A stretch of 64,000 nt of DNA from Sphingobacterium sp. CZ-2 (lineage in GTDB: Bacteria; Bacteroidota; Bacteroidia; Sphingobacteriales; Sphingobacteriaceae), in the NCBI RefSeq assembly GCF_004526235.1, contig NZ_CP038159.1:992001-1056000 (forward strand), read 5' to 3'. Position 1 is the stretch's first letter. Each line of letters starts with the position of its first letter. Under the pieces are notes generated by a model. The model was given only the letters and a program-made list of their open reading frames with translations, was not told where the DNA came from and did no database searches. Below are positions 7,691 to 26,996 of this stretch, in pieces. Both the position numbers and the translations under genes were made by a program.

Positions 7691-8824
7691 TTATACACCT
7701 AGAAATTTAGTAATAGTTTCACCAAGATTATAATAAACTAAATCTTTTTGGTGGATATCAAGTGAAGCCAAAGGGTTTTCTAACTTGTTTATTGCCTGAA
7801 ATTTTCTAAGATTAGATTTGTTATAAAGACATCTTCTTGCAATTATCGGAATGATCCTAATGCCTTCTTCCTCTAATTTTTTTAAAAGTTTTGGAACTTC
7901 AGTTTTCATTATAAATTCTGAAGCTAAAAAGCTTTGCGAGACAATCATTATTGCTATACTACACTCGTTTAGTTGAGATTCAATTTCCTCAAACCAGTCA
8001 CTTCCTACAGGTATTTGTGTGTCAATCCAAAAGTTGAAATCTATTTCAGGCATAATATTCTTTATACTCATTAACATTTCTTCAACATCATCTTTAAATA
8101 CACTATCCTTGTGAGAGTAACTCACAAAAATTTTATGTTTCTTATTCGCATCTATTTTTATATCCTCTTTCATTACCTCAATTCTGTTGCCCATTTGATC
8201 ATCATTAAATTTTGTCAAATTTATGGTATGAATTAAATTACCTTTCTTGTCGAAAAGAGGTTGTAAGGGGTTGCCTTCTAAATAAATATTTGGCCCAAAT
8301 AAATACAATCCTCTTAATTTGGTTAATCTTGATTTTATTGCTTCGATAGGAATGACATCAAAACCCATATTATTTAACCATAATCTTTCTAGCTTTTCTA
8401 GGTCTAATATAACATTTGGGAAATAAGCAAAATTATTATTCGAAACATTTAAATATCTCAAATTTTTTAAATTGTTTAAGCCTTCAGGAAGCTCCACAAA
8501 TTTATTATCAGCAATTAGCAACTTTTCTAATCCGTATAATTGACAGACTTGTTTGGGAATTGATTTTAATCGATTGCCATTCAAGTTTAACACTTTTAGA
8601 TTTATAAGTGATTCAATATTTGAATAAATAGAAGTTATTTCATTTTTAGAAATATCTAGAACTTTAAGATGTCTCAATGAATAAAGTTCCTTGGGTAATG
8701 TTTTCAGCTTGTTACCACTTAGTTTTAAAACTTTAAGGTTCTTGCATTCAAAAACTTCATTAGGAATTTCAGTTAATCCCTGGTCAGATAAATCAATTTT
8801 ACTTCTGTTGTTTAGCTTTCCCAT
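7691..8824 (-). CDS. LRR-TIR domain protein, candidate phage-encoded defence effector
   Basis: This is a 377-residue cytosolic protein. Residues 1-170 hold about seven 23-residue leucine-rich repeats of the form LKVLxLSxNKLxxLPxxL, with a capping segment to about 195. Residues 229-376 form a TIR domain with FVSYSHKD (233-240), FWIDTQIPVG (265-274), a strand AIMIVS (291-296) and SFLASEFIMKTE (298-309). E309 is in the position of the catalytic glutamate of NADase TIR domains. In TIR families such enzymes cleave NAD+ or make cyclic nucleotide signals; LRRs commonly recognise a ligand. It is antisense to the phage late genes and beside an AbiH gene. A weak promoter (TATATTCG) lies at 8844-8851. 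That it senses an invading phage is inference. Confidence 0.85.
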   Translation of the reverse strand: MGKLNNRSKIDLSDQGLTEIPNEVFECKNLKVLKLSGNKLKTLPKELYSLRHLKVLDISKNEITSIYSNIESLINLKVLNLNGNRLKSIPKQVCQLYGLEKLLIADNKFVELPEGLNNLKNLRYLNVSNNNFAYFPNVILDLEKLERLWLNNMGFDVIPIEAIKSRLTKLRGLYLFGPNIYLEGNPLQPLFDKKGNLIHTINLTKFNDDQMGNRIEVMKEDIKIDANKKHKIFVSYSHKDSVFKDDVEEMLMSIKNIMPEIDFNFWIDTQIPVGSDWFEEIESQLNECSIAIMIVSQSFLASEFIMKTEVPKLLKKLEEEGIRIIPIIARRCLYNKSNLRKFQAINKLENPLASLDIHQKDLVYYNLGETITKFLGV

Positions 8825-9228: not shown

Positions 9229-10380
9229 TTAATATTGGCTTCCAAGCATAGAACAATCCACCTTGTTAATTACTCTATTCCTCATCTTAAGTTTGTTTCT
9301 AAAGTGCCTAGAGATATTTTGTGTAATTTCCGTATAGTTGTCATCGTTATTTCCTCGTTGCCAATAATAAGGCTTAATTGCAGCACAATTGTCATGCTCA
9401 AATATCATATTAAGCAATGTTCTGTCAGAAAGCCCACAGGAATGACCCCAGATATAAACTACATAAGAATCAGAATCAATAAAATCAATTAACTCTTTAT
9501 AATTAGTATTATGGAAATAAGCAAAAGATTTGATGTGTGTAAGGAAGTCATTATTATTTGTTTTTTCCATCTCTAAATAATCAGAGTCAATTTCATCTCC
9601 AAATCCAAATACTGGTGGATTATTTCTTTGGGAAAGACTTCCATGAATATTTATATTATAATAATTTCCTCTAGATAACTGATATGGCAAACCAGTATAG
9701 TTAAAGTTCAAGAATGTAATATTTTTAAATTTTATTTCTCGTTTATGTTCATCTTCGTAATCATCATCTCCTAGCTTTTCTATGTGAAACTTATCAATTA
9801 CTATTTTGGGGTTTATTCCCCCTTCTGCACAATAATTAAAATCATAAGGTACATTTGCTCTACTAATTACTTCCTTTAAATACTTTCCCAAGTATATTTT
9901 AATAAAATCTAGATCCTTATTGATTTCAATAAGTTCTTCATCCATAAATCGTATTTGAGAATTTTCATTTACAAGTCTCTTTAAAAGAATTTTTAAATTC
10001 TTATAGTAAATCATCTCAATGTCCACCCAATTCTTTTCAGTTTGATGCCTTAAAAGTTCATTAAGCAATTGAGATTTTATATCAAAATTTAATCGAAACA
10101 TCATATCACCAATAATAAAATCATAAATACCTTCATTTTGAAAATTGTATTTATTTAAAAACATAAAATTTACAAGTTCATGAAGTGTAGAAAAGGTTTT
10201 CAGGTTTTGGCCGTAGTAAATTCGCTCACAAGAAATCTCTAATAATTCGTTTGAAAAATATTGGTCATTTCCTTCAACGTTAATACTTGAAACAATAAGC
10301 CATTTAATGAAATCTGAATATCTAGAGGGTAAGCCACAATGAATATCAAATCCATTTCCAACAATAATTAGTTTGTTCAT
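9229..10380 (-). CDS. AbiH-family abortive-infection protein
   Basis: This is a 383-residue soluble protein of the bacteriophage abortive infection AbiH family. The N-terminus MNKLIIVGNGFDIHCGLPSRYSDF carries the family signature (GNGFD at 8-12, then G-L-P/T-x-x-Y-x-D-F). Further conserved blocks are WVDIE (118-122), NFNYT (225-229), IHGSL (245-249), FGFGDE (258-263) and IWGHSCGLSD (310-319). The length fits the family. AbiH of Lactococcus gives abortive-infection resistance, and the molecular activity of the family is not well defined. It sits in inverted orientation inside the prophage, beside an LRR-TIR gene, as a typical moron. It has its own promoter candidate and is divergent from the structured RNA. 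Confidence 0.85.
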   Translation of the reverse strand: MNKLIIVGNGFDIHCGLPSRYSDFIKWLIVSSINVEGNDQYFSNELLEISCERIYYGQNLKTFSTLHELVNFMFLNKYNFQNEGIYDFIIGDMMFRLNFDIKSQLLNELLRHQTEKNWVDIEMIYYKNLKILLKRLVNENSQIRFMDEELIEINKDLDFIKIYLGKYLKEVISRANVPYDFNYCAEGGINPKIVIDKFHIEKLGDDDYEDEHKREIKFKNITFLNFNYTGLPYQLSRGNYYNINIHGSLSQRNNPPVFGFGDEIDSDYLEMEKTNNNDFLTHIKSFAYFHNTNYKELIDFIDSDSYVVYIWGHSCGLSDRTLLNMIFEHDNCAAIKPYYWQRGNNDDNYTEITQNISRHFRNKLKMRNRVINKVDCSMLGSQY

Positions 10381-11595: not shown

Positions 11596-12918
11596 ATGAC
11601 TATTCCAAAGATTTACTTAAAACGAAGGTCTAATGAAAAAGATGGCCAATTGTGGCTTTACTACTCCCATGGATCAGATAAAAGATTAGAATACTACACC
11701 GGATTGCGTATTGAAAACCAATTCTACAATGAAAAATACTGGCTAAGCAATACCAAAAAACCGATTATGAAAGGTTTTATGTATTCACACCAATATAATA
11801 AGAAGCTTGAGGAAATGAAATCATTTGCAGTCACTTTGGTTATCAATGAAAAGATACATGACAACGATGAACTTAAAAAAAGGATCACAAAAGAATTCAG
11901 AGTAGAGAAAATCAGCCAAAGCAAATTTCCGTCCACAGAATCCTTGACAGACCAAAAGGACATCAACCAACCCAATTTTGGTTCCGTTGATTTTATTTCC
12001 TATTGTGAGTTTGTCCAAGCTGAACGGATAAGCGGTAAACGGCCCATTATCAGCGGAAATAGACAGGGGCTTAATTACAAGTATAACAGCTTGAAAAATC
12101 CGTCCACTACGATATCATCCCTGAAGGAATATGTTAAGTATAAACGGATAAAGCAGCTAAGTTTTAATGATATTAATGTTGCATTCTATAACGATTATAG
12201 AAATTACCTATTGAACGTAAAAAAGAAAAAGATAAGTACTTTTTCAACTCGGGTCAGGGACATTAAAGCCTTTATGAACGAAGGTATTGATGATAAATTA
12301 CACCAAAACACCGGGCACAAAAATAAAAGGTTTATAGCCCCAAAATATGAGAGTACTGGAATTGCTTTAACACTGGAAGAAATTAGAACTATCCAGGACG
12401 CTGACATTGATAAATATTATCATCATGTTAGGGACCTGTTTTTAATCGGATGTTATACGGCTTTACGCTTCAGTGATTATTCAAGCCTTGAATTGGTGGA
12501 AATTGATGACAGCTTTATCAGGCTTAAACAGAGTAAAACAAACAATAGGGTTTCAATACCAATTATGAAGGGCTTAAAAGAAATATTGTCCAGATATAAC
12601 AATAAATTACCACCACCTTGCAGCAATCAGCATTTTAATAGAACAATTAAGAAAATATGTTCATTATCTGAGATCGGATTAGATAGAGTTTATGAGATCG
12701 ATAAGTACGGCAATAAAATTATGTGGAGTTCAAAGGTTACAAGCCATACTGGCCGCCGCTCCTATGCAACAAATATGTTTAAGTTAGGGGTTCCAACCAT
12801 CTTAATTATGTCTGCAACTGGCCATAAAAAAGAAGAAATGTTTTTGAGGTACATAAAGGCCACCAATGAAGAGAAAACAAGAATGTTAGCTGACTGGATG
12901 GAGAAACTAGATATTTAA
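11596..12918 (+). CDS. int: Tyrosine integrase (phage/conjugative-element type of Bacteroidota)
   Basis: This is a 440-residue tyrosine recombinase. An N-terminal arm-binding region (1-110) precedes a SAM-like core-binding domain (about 130-235) and a catalytic domain (about 255-435). The catalytic residues are visible: R291 (TALRFSDY), K314 (QSKTNNR), H384 and R387 (SHTGRRSYA), H410 (ATGHKKEE) and the nucleophile Y419 (FLRYIKAT). It is transcribed towards the 3' end of tRNA-Ser. The spacing of about 580 bases to the tRNA includes the presumed attachment region. It catalyses integration and, with an excisionase not seen here, excision of the prophage. Confidence 0.93.
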   Translation: MTIPKIYLKRRSNEKDGQLWLYYSHGSDKRLEYYTGLRIENQFYNEKYWLSNTKKPIMKGFMYSHQYNKKLEEMKSFAVTLVINEKIHDNDELKKRITKEFRVEKISQSKFPSTESLTDQKDINQPNFGSVDFISYCEFVQAERISGKRPIISGNRQGLNYKYNSLKNPSTTISSLKEYVKYKRIKQLSFNDINVAFYNDYRNYLLNVKKKKISTFSTRVRDIKAFMNEGIDDKLHQNTGHKNKRFIAPKYESTGIALTLEEIRTIQDADIDKYYHHVRDLFLIGCYTALRFSDYSSLELVEIDDSFIRLKQSKTNNRVSIPIMKGLKEILSRYNNKLPPPCSNQHFNRTIKKICSLSEIGLDRVYEIDKYGNKIMWSSKVTSHTGRRSYATNMFKLGVPTILIMSATGHKKEEMFLRYIKATNEEKTRMLADWMEKLDI

Positions 12919-14311: not shown

Positions 14312-14713
14312 TCAAGCAGTTTTTTCATCAAAAAACACGATAAATTGGGTCGGATTAAGTCCAGTTTTATCCTTGATGCTCTTCGCAAATTTACCATAGG
14401 AAGAAAATCCAGATAAAGCCGCCAAATAAGTCAATTTGAAATTGCGAGCTTCCTCTACCGTCCGCAAATAATGCTCCAGATAAGAAATTCGTAGGTTATT
14501 GATGTAATTCGGAAAATCAGCGCCTTTGTTTTTATTCACCACAAAGGATAAGTATTTTGTATTACAACCTATTTCCTTCGCTGTTGACCCTATGGAACAG
14601 GCAGGATTTAAAAAAGCTTGATGTTGTTCCCAAGATTCCAAAGCTCTTAAAATCCTTGTCTCCGTTTCCAGGTTCATGTATTCCTTTTTCTGACCGTTAA
14701 TTAATGCTTCCAT
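14312..14713 (-). CDS. Short AraC-type HTH regulator
   Basis: This 133-residue protein consists almost entirely of an AraC-type DNA-binding domain. The first helix-turn-helix is around SIGSTAKEIGCNTKYLSFVVNKNKG, the linker helix YINNLRISYLEHYLR follows, and the second helix-turn-helix is LTYLAALSGFSSYGKFAKSIKDKTGLNPTQFI. No sensory domain is attached, so it is either a single-domain regulator or a truncated one. It lies 31 bases beyond the DUF1573 gene and is probably transcribed with the exopolysaccharide operon. The same HTH subtype is fused to membrane domains in the neighbouring regulator operon. Confidence 0.8.
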   Translation of the reverse strand: MEALINGQKKEYMNLETETRILRALESWEQHQAFLNPACSIGSTAKEIGCNTKYLSFVVNKNKGADFPNYINNLRISYLEHYLRTVEEARNFKLTYLAALSGFSSYGKFAKSIKDKTGLNPTQFIVFFDEKTA

Positions 14714-14744
14714 AAGCAGAAAATTTGTGTTTATATTTTGTTAA

Positions 14745-15272
14745 TTATTTAGTTTGTTCTTCATCAAATCGCATATAATAGCCCTTGTTATTGGCAGTAC
14801 CATCTACCAGGTCTTCTATATTGCCGTTCTTTTCCTTTTCCATCAGGAATAGTTCTTCATAATCCTTCGTATACATCGCATCAGGCACCACGTTGACATC
14901 GAATACCAATTCCATTTTTTCCAGCTTTTCGAAATTGCCATAGAGCTCTATCCAATGCTTCACAAAACCTACATTCTTTGTACTGTTATAGGTCATGCTG
15001 ATGAACCCCTCTTGCCCTGCCGGAATCGTCTTGGTCGTATTCTTATTCAAGACGATGCAACCACAGGAAGTTATAATGTCCGTGATGATCAATGGTGATT
15101 TTCCGATGTTCTTCACCTTGAATACCACATCCAGATCCTGGCCTGTTTGGATAGGGTAATAATGTCTGCCATTATCCATTATTTCCAAACTGGTCTTTTC
15201 ATTTTTAGGGTTAAAACAGGCATTTAGCGACATCAACCCTATAAATCCTATAAGCAGCATGTTATTTTTCAT
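14745..15272 (-). CDS. DUF1573 lipoprotein
   Basis: This is a 175-residue lipoprotein. The start ATG at 15272 gives a signal peptide MKNNMLLIGFIGLMSLNAC with a lipobox cysteine; an upstream in-frame ATG at 15308 would place the signal internally. The mature part has the DUF1573 core, an immunoglobulin-like fold with KNIGKSPLIITDIITSCGC and later IPAGQEGFISMTYNSTKNVGFVKHWIELYGNF. DUF1573 proteins are abundant in Bacteroidota envelopes and have no defined activity. It follows the DUF4838 gene by 10 bases and so belongs to the polysaccharide operon. Confidence 0.85.
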   Translation of the reverse strand: MKNNMLLIGFIGLMSLNACFNPKNEKTSLEIMDNGRHYYPIQTGQDLDVVFKVKNIGKSPLIITDIITSCGCIVLNKNTTKTIPAGQEGFISMTYNSTKNVGFVKHWIELYGNFEKLEKMELVFDVNVVPDAMYTKDYEELFLMEKEKNGNIEDLVDGTANNKGYYMRFDEEQTK

Positions 15273-15282
15273 ATCCAATCTT

Positions 15283-17409
15283 TTAATGCAATATTTGTAG
15301 TTCATCAATGGCCAATCTTTTGTTCTCCTCCGACGCCTTCTGTATGCGAACCAATAACGGTTTGCTCAAGTCCACGCCTTGAAACGGAATAACAATCTCC
15401 TTTACCGGAGATTCCTCTTCCTTGATTAAGCCGAATTTTAATTTGTTGATAAGCTTTCCTGATTGATGGATTTCAATTGTCGTTGGAACATTAAAACGAT
15501 GCTTTTCATTAACCAAAAAACGGATAAACATCCCTTTTGTCCCTTGCAAATCATTAAAATTCACCTCAAAAGCTATATCCTCATTCGAGGTAAACCATCC
15601 TTGTTGATAATCCTGCGGAAAACCAAGAATACCATTCAAACAGGTATGTAATGCTTCCTTATTATTATCTCCAGGTTGAATCCATTTAACTTGCGATGCT
15701 GTCAACCGATTTCTTTGCTGTCCCCATCCAGAATAGGATTTCCAAGCAACTAAATAATTGGAGATATCTCCATCAGCCTCCTTATACATCTTAATACCAT
15801 TAGCGGAAAAACCAGCTCGTAGATCCTCCACTATCTTAAGGATGTCCGCCTTAACCCGAACCTGATCATTTTTTATTTCAAATGCTCCGCCGGACTCCAA
15901 TCCCTTTTGATAGGCCAATTGCAGCTTACTAAAACCCATTCCTAATAGGAGTTTTTGAAGTTTTTTCCTTTCCAATCCTGTAACTTGTGGTAAGAGCTTC
16001 TCCAGTTCCTTGTAGGAGTTTGCGAACCTGTCCGCCAATAGATAAGTCTTTTGTATGTCGGCAAATCCGGCATACATACCATATCCCTTGCCTTGAAAGG
16101 ATTGCTTTTCCTGATCGATCAGATACAAAGCCAGGATCGAAGCAGATTTAGGATAAAAGCGATGAAGATAGGCGCGCAATAATTGCTCAACAGGTAGGTC
16201 TACATCATTCATCAATGCGGCAGCTACATAGGTTTTAACATCATCTAAACTGCTGTAATCATAGCCACTGGCATTCAGAAAAATTCCCTTTATCCCCAAT
16301 GCCTTAAAATCCTTCCATTGCGCTTGCATGCTGAGCAGGCTTGGCTGTACCGTCAGGTAATCATCGAAATTCATCGAATAATCCCAGAGGTACAACTTGG
16401 AGGATTTTAATGTCCAGGTATTAACTTTCTTCTTAAATACATTAAATTCTTTGGCATCTTTGAAAGAGACCCCCTTGGGTAAGTCAATGGTGCTTAATAA
16501 CACACCTACGTTGCTGGGTAATTTCCCTTTCGGCGGCGATTTAACTGTTCCATAGACGGTAGTAAAGAATTGATGGTTGGGAAATAGGGCACTGATTTTC
16601 CCCAAAAAAGCAAATACAGCTGCCGACGCATCTCCCACCTTATTCCCGGCAGCTGTACATGCCTCGCATGTAAATGCGATGGCATTATCTTCAGGGGCAA
16701 GCATGAAATGATTTCCATGTCCTAGCCCCCCATCACCATAATTATCAACGATATACGCTTTTGTTTGTTCCAATAGATCAGGGCTGGAAAAGCATAACTG
16801 CTCAGGCATAGGTTTTCCATCCAGCTTTGCATGGCTAGCCTCCCTTTTTTCAACCAACTTGCTGAGGTTGTGTCCCCAGATCCCCCAATCTGCATCCAAC
16901 TGATTCGTCCCTAATATTCCTGCATAATCACTATCGGTATTGGGTTGATAGTGAGGCTCTCGGTATGAAAAATCAAAATTTCGAGCCTGATCTTTAAAAT
17001 CTATATAGGCAGGTGGAAGATCTTCATTCTGGATATAATCATTGGCTTCCCCTATCCTATCAATCAATTGATAGATCAACCAAAGCATGGTCCTATTATC
17101 TTTGGCAGATAGGTTTAAGGCCGCCTTACCATTTTTTATCTCATAGTCAAAAGGTAATTCCGGATTTACCTGGATATGCAAATGGAAATAGCCCTGGGGA
17201 GGATTTTCTTCCTGGCGCATCCGGAGGATTACCTTTTTATTTTCAGATCGTTTCTGTAAATGGGTAAATAAATAAGAAGCCCATCTTTCCCCTTCGGTTG
17301 TGCCATCATCGCTGATCAGAAAACCTTTCGCACGAAGCTGACTGTAGGAAGGTTGACAACCTAACATACCTAAAAACAAACTGATCAATATGATATTAAA
17401 ACGAAACAT
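15283..17409 (-). CDS. DUF4838 lipoprotein, putative glycoside-hydrolase-like component of the polysaccharide locus
   Basis: This is a 708-residue secreted protein. The start at 17409 gives a lipoprotein signal MFRFNIILISLFLGMLGC. Residues ~30-125 resemble the N-terminal domain of alpha-glucuronidase-like proteins (TMLWLIYQLIDRIGE). The central TIM-barrel-like DUF4838 region includes GHGNHFMLAPEDN, FTCEACTAA, LYLWDYSMNFDDYLTVQPSLL and GIFLNASG. The C-terminal ~150 residues look like a beta-sandwich. It overlaps the TPR-barrel gene by 14 bases. By position it could trim or modify the exported polymer, a role like that of PgaB's hydrolase domain; this is inference. Confidence 0.75.
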   Translation of the reverse strand: MFRFNIILISLFLGMLGCQPSYSQLRAKGFLISDDGTTEGERWASYLFTHLQKRSENKKVILRMRQEENPPQGYFHLHIQVNPELPFDYEIKNGKAALNLSAKDNRTMLWLIYQLIDRIGEANDYIQNEDLPPAYIDFKDQARNFDFSYREPHYQPNTDSDYAGILGTNQLDADWGIWGHNLSKLVEKREASHAKLDGKPMPEQLCFSSPDLLEQTKAYIVDNYGDGGLGHGNHFMLAPEDNAIAFTCEACTAAGNKVGDASAAVFAFLGKISALFPNHQFFTTVYGTVKSPPKGKLPSNVGVLLSTIDLPKGVSFKDAKEFNVFKKKVNTWTLKSSKLYLWDYSMNFDDYLTVQPSLLSMQAQWKDFKALGIKGIFLNASGYDYSSLDDVKTYVAAALMNDVDLPVEQLLRAYLHRFYPKSASILALYLIDQEKQSFQGKGYGMYAGFADIQKTYLLADRFANSYKELEKLLPQVTGLERKKLQKLLLGMGFSKLQLAYQKGLESGGAFEIKNDQVRVKADILKIVEDLRAGFSANGIKMYKEADGDISNYLVAWKSYSGWGQQRNRLTASQVKWIQPGDNNKEALHTCLNGILGFPQDYQQGWFTSNEDIAFEVNFNDLQGTKGMFIRFLVNEKHRFNVPTTIEIHQSGKLINKLKFGLIKEEESPVKEIVIPFQGVDLSKPLLVRIQKASEENKRLAIDELQILH

Positions 17410-20209
17410 TGACTTGGAAATAGAGATTATACAGATTTCGATAAGGGATTTCATAATTATGGGTTTCATAGTTGTACCAGGTACCCAATACACCTGCAGA
17501 AATATGTTTACTCACCATCCTGCCTACCCCTGCTCCTACCATCGCATTCATCACCGAAAAGGAATTGATGAATTGATAATTGAGAAGCATCACGTCGGGA
17601 CTATTCCCAATATTAGCCATGGCCATCAAGTAGTTTTTAGGATTATTCATATAATACCTACCCTGCAAGCCCACATTGTACAATAGATGGCCATCCAAAA
17701 AGAATTGCATGTATTTGGCATTCAATCGGAAGGAATTGATTTCCTTGGTCAAACCCAGAACACCGTTGTATAAATGCTCTTCCGTATACAGTTGTCGGTA
17801 GCCAGCTCCAAGTTCAAGTTCCCAATCATTTTTAAATTGTCTATAAACAGATGCATTGAAAGCTGTTTTTGGAAAGTATTTATTGGAAATAGCCGCATCT
17901 ATTTTTGTAGCCCATTTTGCATCCCAACCTCTTCCCCATTCCAGCTGTCCCTGTATTCCTTTGCCTTCCGATCTGCCAGAATAATTGATCCGACCGATAA
18001 AAGTATTGACTCCTTCAAATCGGCTATATTCAAAGGTAGAGATGGATTGAATGGTATAATTATCGCCAAATCTAGACCTCAGGTGGTAAAGTCCCACTTC
18101 GTTCTTAAAGCCTTTTTGATTCAGAAATTGTAGATGAGCCTTAAAATCTTCCAATTCCAGCAAGGAAGGTTCGTAAAAACTTTGGTAATAATAGGCTGAA
18201 TCGTACTGCTTCAGTTTTTCGTAGGCCAATCCTTTGAGGTATTTCAGTTCCTTATCCTGTGGTTTATAGTAAAGAGCTTGATCGGCCACTGCAATAACCT
18301 CTTTATCGGCCTTATTTTTCAATAGGTTATTCGCATAGTCGGTTGAGAATTGTACAAAGGTATTTCTCACCTCTTCATGATAAGGATATAGCGCAATTTC
18401 CTTTTTCACCAAATCGTATGCCTCTTGAATATTCGCCCCATTCAACAATTGCGCATTGGCAAGTTTTAGTTTGAAAGGTATATCCTGTGGATAAAGGTTG
18501 CTGGCCATTTGTGCATGAGCTAGCATCTCCTCTTTCAATCCCAATTGATTGGAAAGATTCACTCCATACATCAAGGCATATTTATCCTGCGGAAAATGCT
18601 TCAACCATCGCTTGGTCCATTGGTATGCTAAGGGATAATTCCCTTGTTCGTTGGCCAGTTTGACCATCTTTAACATCAGGTCGTTGTAGCCTGACACATA
18701 GTTTTCCCGCTCAACCTGTGAAACCTCCGTAAGAACCGATTCGTAAATCTCTGCTGCGCGCTCATATTGCTCCTGAACTTCATATATTCCCGAAAGCTTT
18801 ATTTTTAGATCCACATTTCTGGGATCAAGATTTATTTTCTCCTGCAACAGGACGATAGCATCTGAAAAACGACCGGTTTGGTAATAGGCATTGTACATAC
18901 TGTTCAACGCATAATCCCGTTCTTCAGCCTCCCCATAATTTAATATTTCGTTCAATTTGGGAATAGCTGCTCTATATTCATTTGCCGCCATATCGGCACG
19001 GGTTTCTTCAATTAAACTGGCAACATAAGCTGCTTTAATATCTGTATCATTTGGATGCTGGAGAAAGAGCGACCTGGTCAGTGATCTTACCTTATTCTTA
19101 TCAGCCTTTAACCGATAGATATCCAATTCCCGAAGGGATAAGGCCTTATCCATGCCCCGTACATTGGCATAGGACCTTAGAAGATGCAAAGCTTCATCAT
19201 ATTGCTGATTGGCAATGGTCTTGTTCAGCACATGCGGAAATGCTTCCACATTTCCGGGATCAGCTTCCAGAATCTTTCCGTACAAGGTGGCCGGATCTTT
19301 TGCATTTGCATGCCGTGCCGCCTCCAATAAGAAATAATTATATTTCGTACGGTTGATGCCCGATCCACCCTTCGATTGGGCCTGAAGTAGACTTAGGATC
19401 TCATCGTATCTTTTATCATGTTCTAAAATGCTGATCTTCTTATCCACCAAACTTCCATTTCCTGGAAAATAGGTCAAGCCCCTATCCACGGTCGACAAGG
19501 CTGCATAATAATCCCCAGCCTTTATGTAGTTATTAGCCAATTCATGGTATAAGGCCAATTGATTGGGTTTCTCCTGGATCAGAAGCTTATTCACAGCAAT
19601 TGCATCTTCGATCTTACCTGATTTCCGAAGATCGTTTGCCTTCAGCTCTGCTTGATAATTCCTATCAGCTTCCAATTCCTTATCATCAGGGAAGATCTGG
19701 GAAATGCGTTTTAATAAACGATCCGCTTCTACATGGTTGCCTTGAAGGCGGTAAAGATCAATCTTCTTTCGCCAAAGGCCTCTCCAATAGGGATTCACTT
19801 CTAATAGTTCATTCACGTAACATATTGCACTGGAATACCTTCCGGTTTCCATTTCTACTGCTACCAATAAATGCTTCGCATCCACATTGCCTGGATTAAA
19901 GGCCACGGATTTATTCAATTCGAAACGGGCTTTACTATAATCCTTTCTCAACCAATAATATTTTCCCAGGAACATTCGTAAGTCGGAATCCTTCGGTGAT
20001 TTGGCAATTTGGAGGTCCAAAACCTGCTTGGCCTTATTGAGATCACCCTTATTCAAAAGTCCGGCAATTTGCTTGACAACATCTTCCTTATCGCTGATAT
20101 GAACTTTTTGCTGAGCTTGTACGGAGCTAATCCCGCCAAGCATCAAGAAGATCAAAGTCTGCAATAGAGACATGGAAATGGTATTTGAATATTTCTTTAA
20201 CGTATTCAT
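17396..20209 (-). CDS. TPR protein with C-terminal outer-membrane barrel (PgaA/YaiO-like exporter)
   Basis: This is a 937-residue protein with an N-terminal signal peptide (hydrophobic stretch to VQAQ, about residue 33). Roughly fifteen tetratricopeptide repeats follow (about 45-670), for example LRMFLGKYYWLRKDYSKARFEL and GNVDAKHLLVAVEMETGRYS. The last ~240 residues form a beta-barrel with alternating aromatic strands, of the YaiO type, ending YFQVNVSF with the terminal Phe typical of outer-membrane barrels. The layout TPR plus barrel is that of PgaA-type polysaccharide exporters. It begins 28 bases after the glycosyltransferase gene, so it probably exports that enzyme's product. Confidence 0.85.
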   Translation of the reverse strand: MNTLKKYSNTISMSLLQTLIFLMLGGISSVQAQQKVHISDKEDVVKQIAGLLNKGDLNKAKQVLDLQIAKSPKDSDLRMFLGKYYWLRKDYSKARFELNKSVAFNPGNVDAKHLLVAVEMETGRYSSAICYVNELLEVNPYWRGLWRKKIDLYRLQGNHVEADRLLKRISQIFPDDKELEADRNYQAELKANDLRKSGKIEDAIAVNKLLIQEKPNQLALYHELANNYIKAGDYYAALSTVDRGLTYFPGNGSLVDKKISILEHDKRYDEILSLLQAQSKGGSGINRTKYNYFLLEAARHANAKDPATLYGKILEADPGNVEAFPHVLNKTIANQQYDEALHLLRSYANVRGMDKALSLRELDIYRLKADKNKVRSLTRSLFLQHPNDTDIKAAYVASLIEETRADMAANEYRAAIPKLNEILNYGEAEERDYALNSMYNAYYQTGRFSDAIVLLQEKINLDPRNVDLKIKLSGIYEVQEQYERAAEIYESVLTEVSQVERENYVSGYNDLMLKMVKLANEQGNYPLAYQWTKRWLKHFPQDKYALMYGVNLSNQLGLKEEMLAHAQMASNLYPQDIPFKLKLANAQLLNGANIQEAYDLVKKEIALYPYHEEVRNTFVQFSTDYANNLLKNKADKEVIAVADQALYYKPQDKELKYLKGLAYEKLKQYDSAYYYQSFYEPSLLELEDFKAHLQFLNQKGFKNEVGLYHLRSRFGDNYTIQSISTFEYSRFEGVNTFIGRINYSGRSEGKGIQGQLEWGRGWDAKWATKIDAAISNKYFPKTAFNASVYRQFKNDWELELGAGYRQLYTEEHLYNGVLGLTKEINSFRLNAKYMQFFLDGHLLYNVGLQGRYYMNNPKNYLMAMANIGNSPDVMLLNYQFINSFSVMNAMVGAGVGRMVSKHISAGVLGTWYNYETHNYEIPYRNLYNLYFQVNVSF

Positions 20210-20237
20210 TTAGTATATGATGGTATTGATGAATGAA

Positions 20238-21689
20238 TTATGCAGCTTTTGAAGAAGATTTATCCTGACCGTTCTGTCCACTGAACCCTTGCCTGGTCAT
20301 GGTTCCCCATTTAAAGTTTTTCTTGGTGAGGTATTGCCAATATCCTCTCAGCGTAAAAATCACGACAAAGGGATGGTATAGCAGGGCCTCAAAGGCGGAA
20401 AACAGCACTAGACGAAGGTATTCATTCAGATTACGGTATAGTTTTCTTAGGGAAATATCAAACACAATGGTGATGGTGGATATACTGATCCCGATGAGGT
20501 ATACATAAGCCAACATCAGCCAAAACGTATTGAAATTGATCTGTTCAGTATAGAGCAAAAAGAGCAGGAAGAAGAAGCCCGAGAACTCGATGATGGGAGC
20601 CATCAATTCGAAGAAAAAGGCATATGGCATGATAATAAGTCCCATTCTTCCATATTTCCTGTTGAACAGAAATTTTCGATGAACAAAGAATATCTGCAAC
20701 AAGCCCCTTCCCCACCTTGTCCTTTGTCGCATTAATACCTTTAGGTTTGGAGGCCCTTCCGTCCAACAGAGCGAATGGGGCACTTGCACAATCTTATATG
20801 GTAATTTATGCTCTCTTTTATAGGCGATAAGACGTAAGGTCATATCCATATCCTCGGCATGGGATTTCGTATCAAAACCTCCACAGCTGATGACCGAGCT
20901 TTTTTCAAAAAGCCCGAATCCTCCCGACACATTCGGAATGGCATTAATGGCAGACCATCCCATCTTGGCCACCAAATAAGACCGCAAGTATTCTGTTTCC
21001 TGAAAGGTCGGAATAAAATCTGCGGGAGGTCTGATACGCGTAATTTTCCCATCCCTAAAATCACATCCATTGGCCATGCGCATCGTAGCACCTACTGCCA
21101 AGACTGGAATATCAGAATCGAGGACAGGAAGGATAACCTTGCTCAAGGTATCGGGCGAAAGAATACAATCCACATCCGTATTGATGAAGTAATCATATTT
21201 CGCAACATTCACCCCGGCATTCATCGCATCGGCCTTCGTACCTCCATTTACTTTATCCACTACAATTAGTTTATCGTAAAGGGGGTTGACGGATTTAAAG
21301 GTCCTTTTAAAGGGTTTACATGCCACTTTTTCCATGTAAGCGTAAGGAACTTCGATCAGTTCAAACCTGGAGATCATTAATTCTAATGTGTTATCCGTAC
21401 TACCATCATTGACAATAATGATTTCATAAGTTGGATAATTCAGGGAAAGCAATGACGTAATACTGTCCAAAATGATAACTTCCTCATTAAAAGCCGGTGC
21501 AACTATGGATATTCCAGGAGCTGTTTCGGGATAGGTCGTCAGGATATTCTCTTCCCTTTCGGTATACCTTACCCGATTCCTTAGGATGTTGTAATATCCC
21601 ATAAAGGCAAGGACAAAATAAATCAGGGTGATGGCCGTCGCATAGAAAAAAATAGCATAGCCATAAAAATTGAATAAAAACTCAAACAT
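20238..21689 (-). CDS. Processive family-2 glycosyltransferase (PgaC/BcsA-like)
   Basis: This is a 483-residue inner-membrane enzyme. One N-terminal transmembrane segment (11-33) precedes the GT-A catalytic domain, which has VNDGSTDN (93-100), TDVD (171-174), AEDMD (278-282) and QRTRW (322-326). These are the D, DxD, D and QxxRW motifs of processive beta-glycan synthases. Three or four C-terminal transmembrane helices follow (about 345-450). It probably polymerises a sugar from a nucleotide donor and moves the chain through the inner membrane. The sugar cannot be told from sequence. Its gene lies between the HEAT-repeat and the TPR-barrel genes. Confidence 0.9.
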   Translation of the reverse strand: MFEFLFNFYGYAIFFYATAITLIYFVLAFMGYYNILRNRVRYTEREENILTTYPETAPGISIVAPAFNEEVIILDSITSLLSLNYPTYEIIIVNDGSTDNTLELMISRFELIEVPYAYMEKVACKPFKRTFKSVNPLYDKLIVVDKVNGGTKADAMNAGVNVAKYDYFINTDVDCILSPDTLSKVILPVLDSDIPVLAVGATMRMANGCDFRDGKITRIRPPADFIPTFQETEYLRSYLVAKMGWSAINAIPNVSGGFGLFEKSSVISCGGFDTKSHAEDMDMTLRLIAYKREHKLPYKIVQVPHSLCWTEGPPNLKVLMRQRTRWGRGLLQIFFVHRKFLFNRKYGRMGLIIMPYAFFFELMAPIIEFSGFFFLLFLLYTEQINFNTFWLMLAYVYLIGISISTITIVFDISLRKLYRNLNEYLRLVLFSAFEALLYHPFVVIFTLRGYWQYLTKKNFKWGTMTRQGFSGQNGQDKSSSKAA

Positions 21690-21699
21690 GACTGATGTA

Positions 21700-22854
21700 T
21701 TAACCTAATTGATAATTAACCTGATCGAATATCTTTCGCTCAAATTCATTGGAGTTCGTGGAAAGATTAGTAAGCCGAAGTTTTCCTTCTTCCCCAAACT
21801 GCTTGATGGCATAAGCCAAATGAACCTTTTGTTCATTATCTGTAGTTCTGAAAAACTGATTGGTCAGAAAATCGAGCCCTATCTTGGTTTTGAATTTTGC
21901 AACCGCATTAATGATTGCCGTTTGAATCTCTACAGGAGAGATGCCATACATATCGAAAATCTCATGTTCCACCTCCTGGCGACCCAGATTTCCTAGGCTC
22001 TCAATAATAGCTGCTCTAACCAATTTGGATTCCTCCGTTTTTAATAATCCCTTTAGGAATTCGGCACATTCCATTTGGTTGAAAAAACCGATCTCTTTTA
22101 TCATAAATGCTTTGAAAGCATGGTTTTTAGCATGTTGAACCCACCTTGATAATAACGGCAATGGTCCCTCAGACTGGCGACCCACTAAGAAATGGTGAAT
22201 CATGATCTCATCCAGGGCATTAAAATCCGTATCAAAACTGTCTTCCAAAAATTTGAACGGATCTATGTTATCATACTTCATGACGGCCGCCCTAGCCTGT
22301 TTTCTTAATCCCTTATTCTTATGGTTTGTAGAGCGCATCAACACCGATGTTGTCAACCCATTACCCAAATTATCTAACTTTCTTAAGGCGATATGGCGTC
22401 TCTTGGAATTATTTGACATCAATTCAGTTTCCCAAAAACTAGGTATGTCCAGAACATGGATGATGGAACGGTAGTTATCCTCATTTACAGTTTTCCCTGC
22501 TTCCTTCAATTCATTGGCGGTATTTAAGATCAAATCCGTGATCTGGATCTTGGTTTTATTATTCATTCGTAGAATAACGTCCTCAAATTCTTGAAAAACC
22601 CGATCCTCCCCATATTTCTCGTCGGATCCCAGCATAGCAACAAAACGATCCTTTACTTGTCTAGATAATTTTGCAAAATCCCTTTCCTTTTTCCGTAAAT
22701 TCAAATTGATCCAAACAAAACGAATTAAACTGAGGATATAAATGAATATCAAGCCCATTACAATTAATACAGTTAATCGGATCACGAATGGATAACCCAT
22801 AAACTTATTTTGTAAGTAGAATAGGTAATACTGTAGGTAAAAACTTAATTCCAT
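21700..22854 (-). CDS. Membrane-anchored HEAT-repeat protein of the polysaccharide operon
   Basis: This is a 384-residue protein with one transmembrane helix near the N-terminus (about 25-47, IRLTVLIVMGLIFIYILSLIRF). It has a basic coiled linker and then helical repeats from about 130 to the end, with HEAT features such as NKGLRKQARAAVMKYDNIDPFKFLEDS and SKLVRAAIIESLGNLGRQEVEHEIF. It is the first gene of the operon, with 10 bases before the synthase. HEAT-repeat partners of synthases are probably scaffolds or regulators; its place suggests it acts on the glycosyltransferase. No catalytic motif is seen. Confidence 0.75.
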   Translation of the reverse strand: MELSFYLQYYLFYLQNKFMGYPFVIRLTVLIVMGLIFIYILSLIRFVWINLNLRKKERDFAKLSRQVKDRFVAMLGSDEKYGEDRVFQEFEDVILRMNNKTKIQITDLILNTANELKEAGKTVNEDNYRSIIHVLDIPSFWETELMSNNSKRRHIALRKLDNLGNGLTTSVLMRSTNHKNKGLRKQARAAVMKYDNIDPFKFLEDSFDTDFNALDEIMIHHFLVGRQSEGPLPLLSRWVQHAKNHAFKAFMIKEIGFFNQMECAEFLKGLLKTEESKLVRAAIIESLGNLGRQEVEHEIFDMYGISPVEIQTAIINAVAKFKTKIGLDFLTNQFFRTTDNEQKVHLAYAIKQFGEEGKLRLTNLSTNSNEFERKIFDQVNYQLG

Positions 22855-23403: not shown

Positions 23404-24951
23404 TCAATAAATCTCATTTCTTTTATTTTCAATATATTGGGAAGGTGGTATACCAACAACGGCCTTAAAAGCCATGGTAAATTTACTATGCGAAGAAAAT
23501 CCAGAAAACTCTGCTAGGTAGGATAGTTTATAATCCAACATGACCTGGTTTTCACTTAATTCTCTGATCAGGAATTGAATCCGAAGATGCAGAATATAGT
23601 CGTTGAAATTTTGGTTTTTATATTTTCGTATAACGTATGAAACATATTTTTGATTAGAGTGAAGTTTATGCGCCAATTTGTTCAACGTAATGTTTTTATC
23701 CAAATAAAACTGCTCATTTTCCATCTGGTTCAAATCCTTCACCAGCCTGTTTTCTGTATCCAATGAAATATTGAGGTCGGTTTCCGTATTGATTTCCTTC
23801 ATCAGGATCTTTGGAACCAAAATAGGTTCATCTTCGATATTCATGTCGAATTCCATCACCTGATCCGATTCCCGGGTAGGATTATTATCCAATCTCCTTT
23901 TCAAGATGATATAAATGACGCTGAACACAGCTAGACTTATCAATAGCGACCAAACAAGGATAAGATTCCGTTTGCGACTGATCAAATTCTGATTGTTTAA
24001 ATCTTTGATCAATTCATCCGAAACCGCTATGGAATATTCTGTTTTCTCTTTTAATATATTAGCATAATCATTAAAATAGGCATTAGATTGTTTATGGTCA
24101 TTGATTTTTTGATAATATCTGCCTGAAACAAGATAATAAGGTTCTTTAAAATCCATTCGATTGAACTTCGTTAAATACGGCTTAGCCTTTCCCAAATAGG
24201 ATAAAGTAGAATCCAATTTTTCTGATTTAAGATAAGCTTCAGCTTTGCCTAGATACATATATGCCCGAAAATTACTCTCCATACTTCCCAAAAGACGGGT
24301 GGCGTTGTCAAACTGATTGATCGCTTGTTCGAATTTTAATAATTGAAGATAACATTGCCCCATGAGGTAACTGAAGGAAGAATTAAATAGGATCGTCTGC
24401 GGCGTTTGGACCTTTATCTGGGATAAAGCGGATTTCCCTTGCTCCAATTTTTTAATACCCGCAATAAAATCTCTTTTGTTCATCAGCTGCAAAGCTTCCT
24501 CTTGGATGATGTGTATTCTTTCCTCCTCAAATAAGGTTGTGTCTTCAATGGAGTTCTGGTTCTGATGGGCTATCTCAATATAACGTTGGGCTTCCACATT
24601 CAGACCCACTTCCCGAAAATTTTCGGCAAGGAAAATCGAATTCTGAGTCGCCAACTCGTAATATCCAGATAATTCGGCCTTGCGTTCGGCCAATAACCCC
24701 TTTCTGATCGCCCGAACATAATCTTTCGATTCTTTATATAAACTGGCAAGTAAGATTAGGGTACTAATCTCTTCTTCAGCACTTTCCGCTTCGGTGACCA
24801 AGGAATCTGTAAGCCGGATGGCTGCTCGGAGATCTCTTTCTTTTAAATCCTTTTGAATGTAACGGAGTCGTTCTTCAAAATTCCCATCCTGAGGGAATCC
24901 TTTCATGGGTACCATGAGTCCAATAAATATAAGAATGAACAATTGCCTCAT
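23404..24951 (-). CDS. TPR-sensor AraC-type transcriptional regulator
   Basis: This 515-residue protein has an N-terminal signal peptide (MRQLFILIFIGLMVPMKGFPQ) and then TPR-like helical repeats (about 30-310) outside the inner membrane. One transmembrane helix (about 325-348, ILVWSLLISLAVFSVIYIIL) is followed by a C-terminal AraC-type HTH (about 415-515, with KLHSNQKYVSYVIRKYKN and LSYLAEFSGFSSHSKFTMAF). This periplasmic-TPR/TM/AraC layout is common in Bacteroidota. It is the last gene of a three-regulator operon; the start overlaps no neighbour and leaves 1 base to the upstream gene's stop. The ligand is unknown. Confidence 0.88.
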   Translation of the reverse strand: MRQLFILIFIGLMVPMKGFPQDGNFEERLRYIQKDLKERDLRAAIRLTDSLVTEAESAEEEISTLILLASLYKESKDYVRAIRKGLLAERKAELSGYYELATQNSIFLAENFREVGLNVEAQRYIEIAHQNQNSIEDTTLFEEERIHIIQEEALQLMNKRDFIAGIKKLEQGKSALSQIKVQTPQTILFNSSFSYLMGQCYLQLLKFEQAINQFDNATRLLGSMESNFRAYMYLGKAEAYLKSEKLDSTLSYLGKAKPYLTKFNRMDFKEPYYLVSGRYYQKINDHKQSNAYFNDYANILKEKTEYSIAVSDELIKDLNNQNLISRKRNLILVWSLLISLAVFSVIYIILKRRLDNNPTRESDQVMEFDMNIEDEPILVPKILMKEINTETDLNISLDTENRLVKDLNQMENEQFYLDKNITLNKLAHKLHSNQKYVSYVIRKYKNQNFNDYILHLRIQFLIRELSENQVMLDYKLSYLAEFSGFSSHSKFTMAFKAVVGIPPSQYIENKRNEIY

Positions 24952-24952
24952 A

Positions 24953-26050
24953 TTACAAAAGCTTGGATTTTATCTGTTCCCTGTACTCTACTGGTGTGCA
25001 ATCCTTTTCAAGACTAAAATTTCTATAAAAAGATGCCCTCGAACTAAAACCACATCGAAGAGCCAGTTCTTCTATATTCATATCAAAATCTGGTTGTTCC
25101 AACTCTTTGCATACCGCCTCAATCCGTAAAGAATTAATGGTTTTCAATACATTCTGTTTAAAATACTCCTTGAAAAATTGGGAGATCATCGATCTGGACA
25201 TCTTCAAATCTTTTACCATGGTATCCAAACTAAAGCCAGGATCAAGGTAGGGCTGCTGGTTTAAGTAATTCAACACCCGGTCTTGATAATTCGTGAGTTT
25301 ATGGTTAGGCATCTGTAATTCCAAAATCGGGTTTTCAGCTTCGACCATAGGAAAAGGACGATTCAGAAAATCAAACTCACTATGCACTGTTTTCCTATCC
25401 ACCAATTCTTTCAACAGGTAATTATAAATAATGATCGCCCCAAACAACATGATCATATAAATGGTGATGGTAGATAGCTGCGAGGTATTTCTGATCTGTG
25501 TAAGAAACTGAGCAGATATCAGCGGCAAAATGAAGGCCGCAAGAACCAAAAGTAAGATGATCGAAAAATAAAAAATCCGTTTGATGTTCGACATGGCAAT
25601 ATCCAAGCCCCTGCCTTTGAACATGATAAATATGGGGTATATCATCCAGGATAGGCCAAAAGAACTATATAGGACAAAATAATAGGTTTTACTAAAGTTG
25701 ACACGAAACACCTCAGAGGTAAGGAAATAAAAATATATCCCCAAAAAGATCAAGAATGGCGTGAAATGAAGAAATACCGTTTTAACTTTTGGTTTTTTAT
25801 CTTCATAAGCCATGAAAGCAAAATATAAAATGGGACCATATAACAAGCCTAGGGGAGCACCTCGATCGACATATTGATACCCTTTAACAATATCAATAAA
25901 GATGGCTGCAAAACTTACATGGAAGAGCATGACGAGCAATAACCGAAAAACAATCTTATCAAATGAGCTTTTGTTAGGCAAGAGGTAATACACCTGGCAA
26001 CTCATTAAACAGATCATGACGATCGATGCATATATAAAAAAAATGACCAT
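24953..26050 (-). CDS. Seven-transmembrane AraC-type regulator
   Basis: This is a 365-residue protein with seven predicted transmembrane helices in residues 1-220. The HTH domain is at about 270-360 (YLDPGFSLDTMVKDLKMSRSMISQFFKEYFKQ and MNIEELALRCGFSSRASFYRNFS, ending DCTPVEYREQ). The HTH starts in the cytoplasm directly after the last helix. It is the middle gene of three, with gaps of 1 base on each side, so the three must be translated from one message. It probably senses a membrane or extracellular signal and regulates nearby genes such as the polysaccharide operon; this is inference. Confidence 0.85.
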   Translation of the reverse strand: MVIFFIYASIVMICLMSCQVYYLLPNKSSFDKIVFRLLLVMLFHVSFAAIFIDIVKGYQYVDRGAPLGLLYGPILYFAFMAYEDKKPKVKTVFLHFTPFLIFLGIYFYFLTSEVFRVNFSKTYYFVLYSSFGLSWMIYPIFIMFKGRGLDIAMSNIKRIFYFSIILLLVLAAFILPLISAQFLTQIRNTSQLSTITIYMIMLFGAIIIYNYLLKELVDRKTVHSEFDFLNRPFPMVEAENPILELQMPNHKLTNYQDRVLNYLNQQPYLDPGFSLDTMVKDLKMSRSMISQFFKEYFKQNVLKTINSLRIEAVCKELEQPDFDMNIEELALRCGFSSRASFYRNFSLEKDCTPVEYREQIKSKLL

Positions 26051-26051
26051 G

Positions 26052-26996
26052 CTACTTTTGATTGCTTATTTTAAAATCTGTTACCGACTGACGCATATAT
26101 AAGTGGAAATATTTATTGAATTTAGAAACAGAATTGAAGCCACATAAATTCGAAAGAACAGCGGTCTTTAAATGCGGATAATTACCTTTCAATAGACTCA
26201 CGGCATACAAAATCCTATATTTTGCCAACCAATCAAAGAAAGAACACTTAGCCTGTAGATCAAGGAATTGTAGCATCACCTCTTTACTTAATCCGGTATG
26301 CTGTAGGAATTTTTCCATGCTGAGATTGGAATCCAGAAACAACTTGTCCTTTTCCATTGCATGTTGCAATACCTGATGATAGGCTCCCCACTCCTGCTCC
26401 GTGATTTTTATCGGCTGTGATTTTTCGGCAGTCAACACATTGTAGTATGTACGACGGTTGTCCATAGAAAATCGAGAAATCAAAAACCCTAATATGATAA
26501 AGATCCCAATACAATTGATGACCATAAATACATAAACCGGACGGACATCATAATTAAATGGCTTAAACATATAAAACAACATCGTCAACAAAAAGAAGGC
26601 TACAATAAAACCAAAAAGACAGAGGATTTCCAAAAGAATAGCTTTATATCTGTTCTTAGCTCCCCTTACCTTTTGGGTATTCCTCAATACATAAGTCGGA
26701 TAGATGGTTAAAGAACTTATATAAGCGATATAAACAATCATTAAATGCCACTTTTGTAAATCCCTAGCCCAATTGATATAGAGTATGGAGAATAGAAAAA
26801 AAGGTAAAAAGTGCATGCAAACTGTTAGAAACTTTATTCTTTGTAGCCTCAAATTCCATAAGCAAGCCAATAACAATGGACCATATAACAGGGCAATCGG
26901 AATATCATACATATATGCCATAAATGGAATATGCAGAATCAACAATAAACAGAATATCAAGATCAACAAGTTGAAATTATTCAGTCTGTCTTTCAT
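26052..26996 (-). CDS. Six-transmembrane AraC-type regulator
   Basis: This is a 314-residue protein with about six predicted transmembrane helices in residues 1-180. A diverged AraC-type HTH lies at about 205-312 (LDSNLSMEKFLQHTGLSKEVMLQFLDLQ and LSNLCGFNSVSKFNKYFHLYMRQSVTDF). The motif GFNSVSKFNKYF is the second-helix signature. It is the first gene of the three-regulator operon and lies 541 bases from the divergent DUF4382 gene. The HTH is less typical than in the next two genes, so it may be a partner that forms mixed complexes; that is speculation. Confidence 0.75.
   Translation of the reverse strand: MKDRLNNFNLLILIFCLLLILHIPFMAYMYDIPIALLYGPLLLACLWNLRLQRIKFLTVCMHFLPFFLFSILYINWARDLQKWHLMIVYIAYISSLTIYPTYVLRNTQKVRGAKNRYKAILLEILCLFGFIVAFFLLTMLFYMFKPFNYDVRPVYVFMVINCIGIFIILGFLISRFSMDNRRTYYNVLTAEKSQPIKITEQEWGAYHQVLQHAMEKDKLFLDSNLSMEKFLQHTGLSKEVMLQFLDLQAKCSFFDWLAKYRILYAVSLLKGNYPHLKTAVLSNLCGFNSVSKFNKYFHLYMRQSVTDFKISNQK

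Follow-up and report, generated by a model that had tools for sequence, protein, structure and literature searches.

A conserved five-gene operon of Bacteroidota that probably encodes a synthase-dependent exopolysaccharide system with a DUF4838 lipoprotein

Results

A five-gene operon with a fixed order in Bacteroidota

Within a 64,000-nucleotide stretch of Sphingobacterium sp. CZ-2 (contig NZ_CP038159.1, positions 992,001 to 1,056,000; hereafter, the window), we characterized an operon in which genes for a HEAT-repeat protein, a processive GT2 synthase, a TPR protein with a YaiO-family barrel, a DUF4838 putative lipoprotein and a DUF1573 putative lipoprotein follow one another on the minus strand. 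Our comparisons establish its gene content and synteny, the single clade formed by its DUF4838 proteins, and its domain folds. We consider it likely that these five genes constitute a synthase-dependent exopolysaccharide system under AraC-type control; the polymer, the direction of transport, the enzyme activity and the roles of the HEAT, DUF1573 and regulatory proteins are those that we infer below. The genes of the operon and its immediate surroundings are as follows (window coordinates):

26052 to 26996, minus strand: polytopic membrane protein, upstream, with a weak AraC-type HTH match (27.1 bits, below the cut-off of 33.6)
24953 to 26050, minus strand: polytopic membrane AraC-type regulator, upstream (domain and hydrophobic-segment search)
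23404 to 24951, minus strand: AraC-type regulator with TPRs and one transmembrane segment, upstream (domain and hydrophobic-segment search)
21700 to 22854, minus strand: HEAT-repeat protein with one N-terminal transmembrane helix (Pfam HEAT_2, E 2.5e-12)
20238 to 21689, minus strand: processive GT2 synthase, PgaC-like (Pfam GT2, E 6.6e-21)
17396 to 20209, minus strand: TPR protein with a C-terminal YaiO-family barrel (TPR_19, E 1.4e-24; YaiO, E 1.8e-23)
15283 to 17409, minus strand: DUF4838 putative lipoprotein, 708 aa from the ATG at 17409 (Pfam, E 3.1e-30)
14745 to 15308, minus strand: DUF1573 putative lipoprotein with an Ig-like domain (Pfam, E 9.8e-18; lipobox LNAC)
14312 to 14713, minus strand: small AraC-type HTH protein, 133 aa, directly downstream of the operon (HTH_18, E 1.6e-8)

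An earlier sequence-only reading of positions 14312–22854 had named the five genes and their domains, all of which we recovered from open reading frames and Pfam on the minus strand, but had missed the sixth gene in that range, encoding the 133-aa AraC-type protein at 14312–14713. The DUF4838 gene very probably begins at 17409 rather than 17493, because homologues align from that methionine and, with gene starts as called, 28 of 44 loci show the resulting 14-nt overlap between the barrel and DUF4838 genes; the likely start of the DUF1573 gene is an ATG near 15272. In a promoter scan, sigma-70-type sites were rarer than in shuffled sequences, and an assumed Bacteroidota-type pattern gave no match on the operon strand and two on the plus strand, which is chance level.

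To describe the distribution of the operon, 45 loci selected by GT2 similarity were compared, comprising 39 from a GT2 contig scan, relatives from family searches and the window itself; the set includes a few near-duplicates of one species and one locus (L097) on a contig labelled Gastranaerophilales that may be misbinned. All five genes occurred in the same order and on one strand in 43 of the 45, the two exceptions (L088 and L115) both being cut by a contig end, and median gaps between neighbouring genes ranged from −14 to +14 nt. Conservation of gene order across Bacteroidota, which the sequence-only reading had proposed as a test, is thereby borne out. Since the flanking genes mostly differ from genus to genus, the five-gene order is not simply long-range synteny. 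Two variations on the layout were seen: the HEAT gene is represented by two open reading frames (approximately 117–138 and 264–269 aa) in flavobacterial loci L083, L089, L098, L112 and L115, and L069 and L070 carry tandem GT2 genes within one operon.

Carriers are scattered over Sphingobacteriaceae, Flavobacteriaceae, Weeksellaceae, Crocinitomicaceae, Dysgonomonadaceae and Bacteroidaceae, and they are rare, given that only three of 395 genomes sampled from the phylum held a DUF4838 match above 500 bits. A DUF4838 relative of any kind was found in 25 genomes of this sample; in 12 of them, which are the 12 best-scoring, it lies within ~6 kb of a same-family GT2 gene on the same contig and strand. 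In the DUF4838 tree, from which (as from the counts) a GH20-like protein, L141:307-2547, was excluded, a branch with SH-aLRT support of 100 separates the proteins of the five-gene loci from the remaining DUF4838 proteins, synthase-linked or not.

The DUF4838 protein has a glycosidase-type fold and clade-specific residue changes

The DUF4838 protein matches Pfam PF16126 at 105.9 bits (cut-off 26.6), and its structural model (pLDDT 86.9) comprises an N-terminal alpha/beta domain, a TIM-barrel-like core, a helical region and a C-terminal beta domain. A sequence search of solved structures returned no relative. The top fold match was 6q63 (BT0459; Foldseek E 5e-16, Z 15.7), followed by GH115, GH84, GH67, GH138 and GH20 chains, among which GH84 O-GlcNAcases and GH20 hexosaminidases ranked high; GH115, GH67 and GH138, which are not hexosaminidases, fit the model about as well as GH84. 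The resemblance to glycosidases suggested from sequence is therefore confirmed at the level of the fold, although identities to these matches are only ~10% and so support a shared fold but not a function.

All groups of the 84 DUF4838 proteins conserve R150, H180, D241, W342 and Y344, and D343 is nearly as constant; D241 is invariant and, by a strand count done by eye, occupies the position of the GH20 catalytic Asp. The five-gene clade departs from the other groups at the glutamate of a “GE[FLM]” motif after barrel strand 8, which is present in none of its 44 proteins, in 6 of 17 proteins of one other group, and in 19 of the 23 unlinked proteins (the other 4 have Asp); N347, D349 and S306 are further changes specific to the clade. 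From this pattern, catalysis by the clade's DUF4838 proteins may be altered or lost, and without the common glutamate they may not be hydrolases. The missing glutamate and the clade-specific changes would both suit a non-catalytic, polymer-binding scaffold of glycosidase origin, but Asp241, Arg150, His180, Trp342 and Tyr344 are kept across all groups, with Asp343 nearly so, the papers searched gave no assignment of catalytic residues, and the lost glutamate may concern specificity instead; we judge such a scaffold unlikely, though well worth entertaining. Relative to the DUF4838/GH163 endo-beta-N-acetylglucosaminidases, the protein shares the PF16126 match and barrel residues, whereas its clade is separate, is missing the common Glu and is encoded within an operon for synthesis.

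The operon resembles Pga in plan but not in membership

For comparison with the operon, PgaABCD and YaiO/P/S were drawn from E. coli MG1655. The GT2 synthase carries hydrophobic segments on both sides of its GT domain, and its NTDVD, HAED and QxxRW motif residues are invariant among 29 aligned homologues. It matched E. coli PgaC at E 1e-26 with 25% identity and also matched YaiP; its best NCBIfam model is PgaC_IcaA (118 bits, below the cut-off of 422). A beta linkage of the polymer would be expected from this type of GT2. The HEAT protein, whose gene lies upstream of the GT2 gene in every compared locus not cut by a contig end, has a single N-terminal hydrophobic segment (residues ~23–41), and a positive-inside reading places its repeats on the probable cytoplasmic side.

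PgaA and BcsC both combine TPRs with a barrel. The operon's version begins with a signal-peptide-like segment, continues through many helical repeats and ends in a predicted 14-strand outer-membrane barrel. In the AlphaFold model (pLDDT 84.4) the 14 strands span residues 703–936, and a pTM of 0.47 leaves the relative placement of the TPR and barrel parts uncertain; the 50 matches that Foldseek listed for this model were all to helical-repeat proteins, almost exclusively eukaryotic ones. The barrel domain passes both YaiO family cut-offs (PF19413, 83.8 bits vs 23.9; TIGR04390, 46.3 vs 32) and falls below the PgaA model TIGR03939 (46 bits vs 366.65). Likeness to E. coli PgaA is confined to the TPRs, and that to E. 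coli YaiO is a weak profile similarity only.

These observations bear on whether the operon is a true Pga system making partly deacetylated poly-beta-1,6-GlcNAc, with DUF4838 replacing PgaB and the HEAT protein replacing PgaD. In favour of this, the synthase is nearer to PgaC than to any other named NCBIfam family, the export protein combines TPRs with a barrel, and a periplasmic lipoprotein of glycosidase-type fold occupies the PgaB position. However, both PgaA and PgaC scores are far under their family cut-offs, the barrel is of YaiO type, and HEAT and DUF1573 proteins are added. Using phmmer, neither E. coli PgaB nor PgaD matched any open reading frame of the searched loci (the HEAT profile against PgaD gave E 0.18; PgaD is short, and a distant relative could escape such a search), in agreement with the earlier remark that the usual deacetylase/hydrolase is absent. 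The genome's own three NodB-type deacetylases are all distant from the operon, the closest ~265 kb away. A true Pga system is thus improbable. “Pga-like”, as the sequence-only reading had it, is right as a working analogy, covering the PgaC-homologous synthase and the general TPR-plus-barrel plan, and wrong as membership, the barrel being of the YaiO family and the searched loci having yielded no PgaB or PgaD relative. Similarly, its description of DUF4838 as standing “in place of PgaB” holds for gene position, a sharing of PgaB's job being hypothetical: the two are separate protein families, and since DUF4838 also occurs in related operons with a sulfatase-fused synthase (L121), it is no simple substitute for one partner.

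The E. coli yaiO-yaiP-yaiS locus likewise pairs a GT2 (YaiP) with a YaiO barrel, but it encodes a putative deacetylase and an acyltransferase, has no HEAT, DUF4838 or DUF1573 genes, and its YaiO, at 257 aa, is too short for a long TPR array. Related systems also include the HEAT-GT2-YaiO loci of Bacteroidota, whose three proteins are clear profile homologues of the operon's. The five-gene operon is one member of a wider HEAT-GT2-YaiO family, in which a lone response-regulator receiver is the usual neighbour: outside the five-gene set, such loci mostly have a lone receiver-domain protein beside the HEAT gene or near the operon. One paralogous system lies in the same genome (L120, ~3.70–3.72 Mb) and consists of a hybrid histidine kinase, a receiver, a HEAT protein, a GT2–sulfatase-fold fusion and a YaiO barrel; it differs in having the receiver beside HEAT, a fused GT2, a barrel protein that is shorter and encoded on the opposite strand, and no DUF1573. 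Both L120 and L121 have a GT2 with a fused sulfatase-fold domain. We considered a PgaB-like identity for the fused domain of the paralogue and rejected it, Pfam assigning a sulfatase fold; among NCBIfam models, the domain weakly matches phosphoglycerol transferase I.

Other roles for the DUF4838 protein are less probable

A role in which DUF4838 works on peptidoglycan, so as to open the cell wall around the TPR-barrel conduit or to anchor it there, would be compatible with its N-acetylhexosaminidase-like fold matches, its lipoprotein signal and an envelope operon. Yet Pfam detects no known peptidoglycan-binding domain in the protein, and the substrates of the top fold matches are N-glycans, O-GlcNAc proteins or glucuronides, making this role highly improbable. 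A catabolic glycan-use locus, suggested by DUF4838/GH163 enzymes described in glycan breakdown (PMC10154615) and by one study's catabolic reading of Polaribacter genes (PMC9870897), is extremely unlikely for an operon built around a processive synthase and a TPR-barrel exporter and with no TonB-dependent receptor gene beside it within the window.

The same Polaribacter genes would, should they belong to an operon of this kind, count in favour of the exopolysaccharide reading. In P. dokdonensis with an alga, the GT2 gene MED152_03905 was induced 8.8-fold and MED152_03915, whose DUF4838 product was annotated as GH163, 18.5-fold (PMC9870897). The two are two locus-tag steps apart, a spacing that, read from the tags alone, fits GT2-barrel-DUF4838. 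A GH163 enzyme of B. thetaiotaomicron acts on complex N-glycans (PMC10154615).

Accessory proteins and neighbourhood

A lipobox-like motif occurs in 38 of 44 DUF1573 homologues. Genes of AraC type lie near 24 of the 45 five-gene loci and a lone receiver near 1 of the 45; three close relatives (L063, L064 and L081) carry a homologue of the small downstream AraC-type protein at the corresponding position. Also near the operon are genes for an LRR-TIR protein (7691–8824, minus strand), an AbiH protein (9229–10380, minus strand) and a tyrosine-recombinase-type integrase (11596–12918, plus strand), possibly a defence or mobile island.

Discussion

Gene content and synteny give good support to the proposal, first made from sequence, of a distinct and conserved Bacteroidota operon for polymer synthesis and export. 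In the exopolysaccharide system that we favour, the GT2 synthase would build an N-acetylhexosamine-type polymer from a nucleotide sugar (UDP-GlcNAc or a related one is the likeliest) and pass the chain across the inner membrane. On the cytoplasmic side, the membrane-anchored HEAT protein would partner or control the synthase, taking the position of PgaD without belonging to its family. The periplasmic TPR array would lead the chain to the YaiO-type outer-membrane barrel, while the DUF4838 lipoprotein, whose TIM barrel is related to those of N-acetylhexosaminidases, may bind, trim or edit it in the periplasm, and the DUF1573 lipoprotein could serve as an assembly or tethering partner. Expression would be controlled by AraC-type regulators where related operons use a receiver-domain protein.

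To our knowledge, synthase-dependent exopolysaccharide systems are poorly charted in Bacteroidota, and none of the titles and abstracts listed in literature searches on the operon's domains and on related polysaccharide terms describes it. More tentatively, the operon might represent a distinct class of exopolysaccharide secretion, defined by a HEAT synthase partner, a YaiO barrel joined to a long TPR array, and a DUF4838 protein that was recruited from glycan breakdown and now edits or guides the chain on its way out, with an undescribed polymer as its product.

The operon places DUF4838 in polymer synthesis rather than breakdown, and the reading of “GH163” genes outside polysaccharide-use loci in transcriptomes may change as a result. 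Furthermore, it provides a defined five-gene set that can be tested for a new polymer, for a role in biofilms and for control without a PgaD partner.
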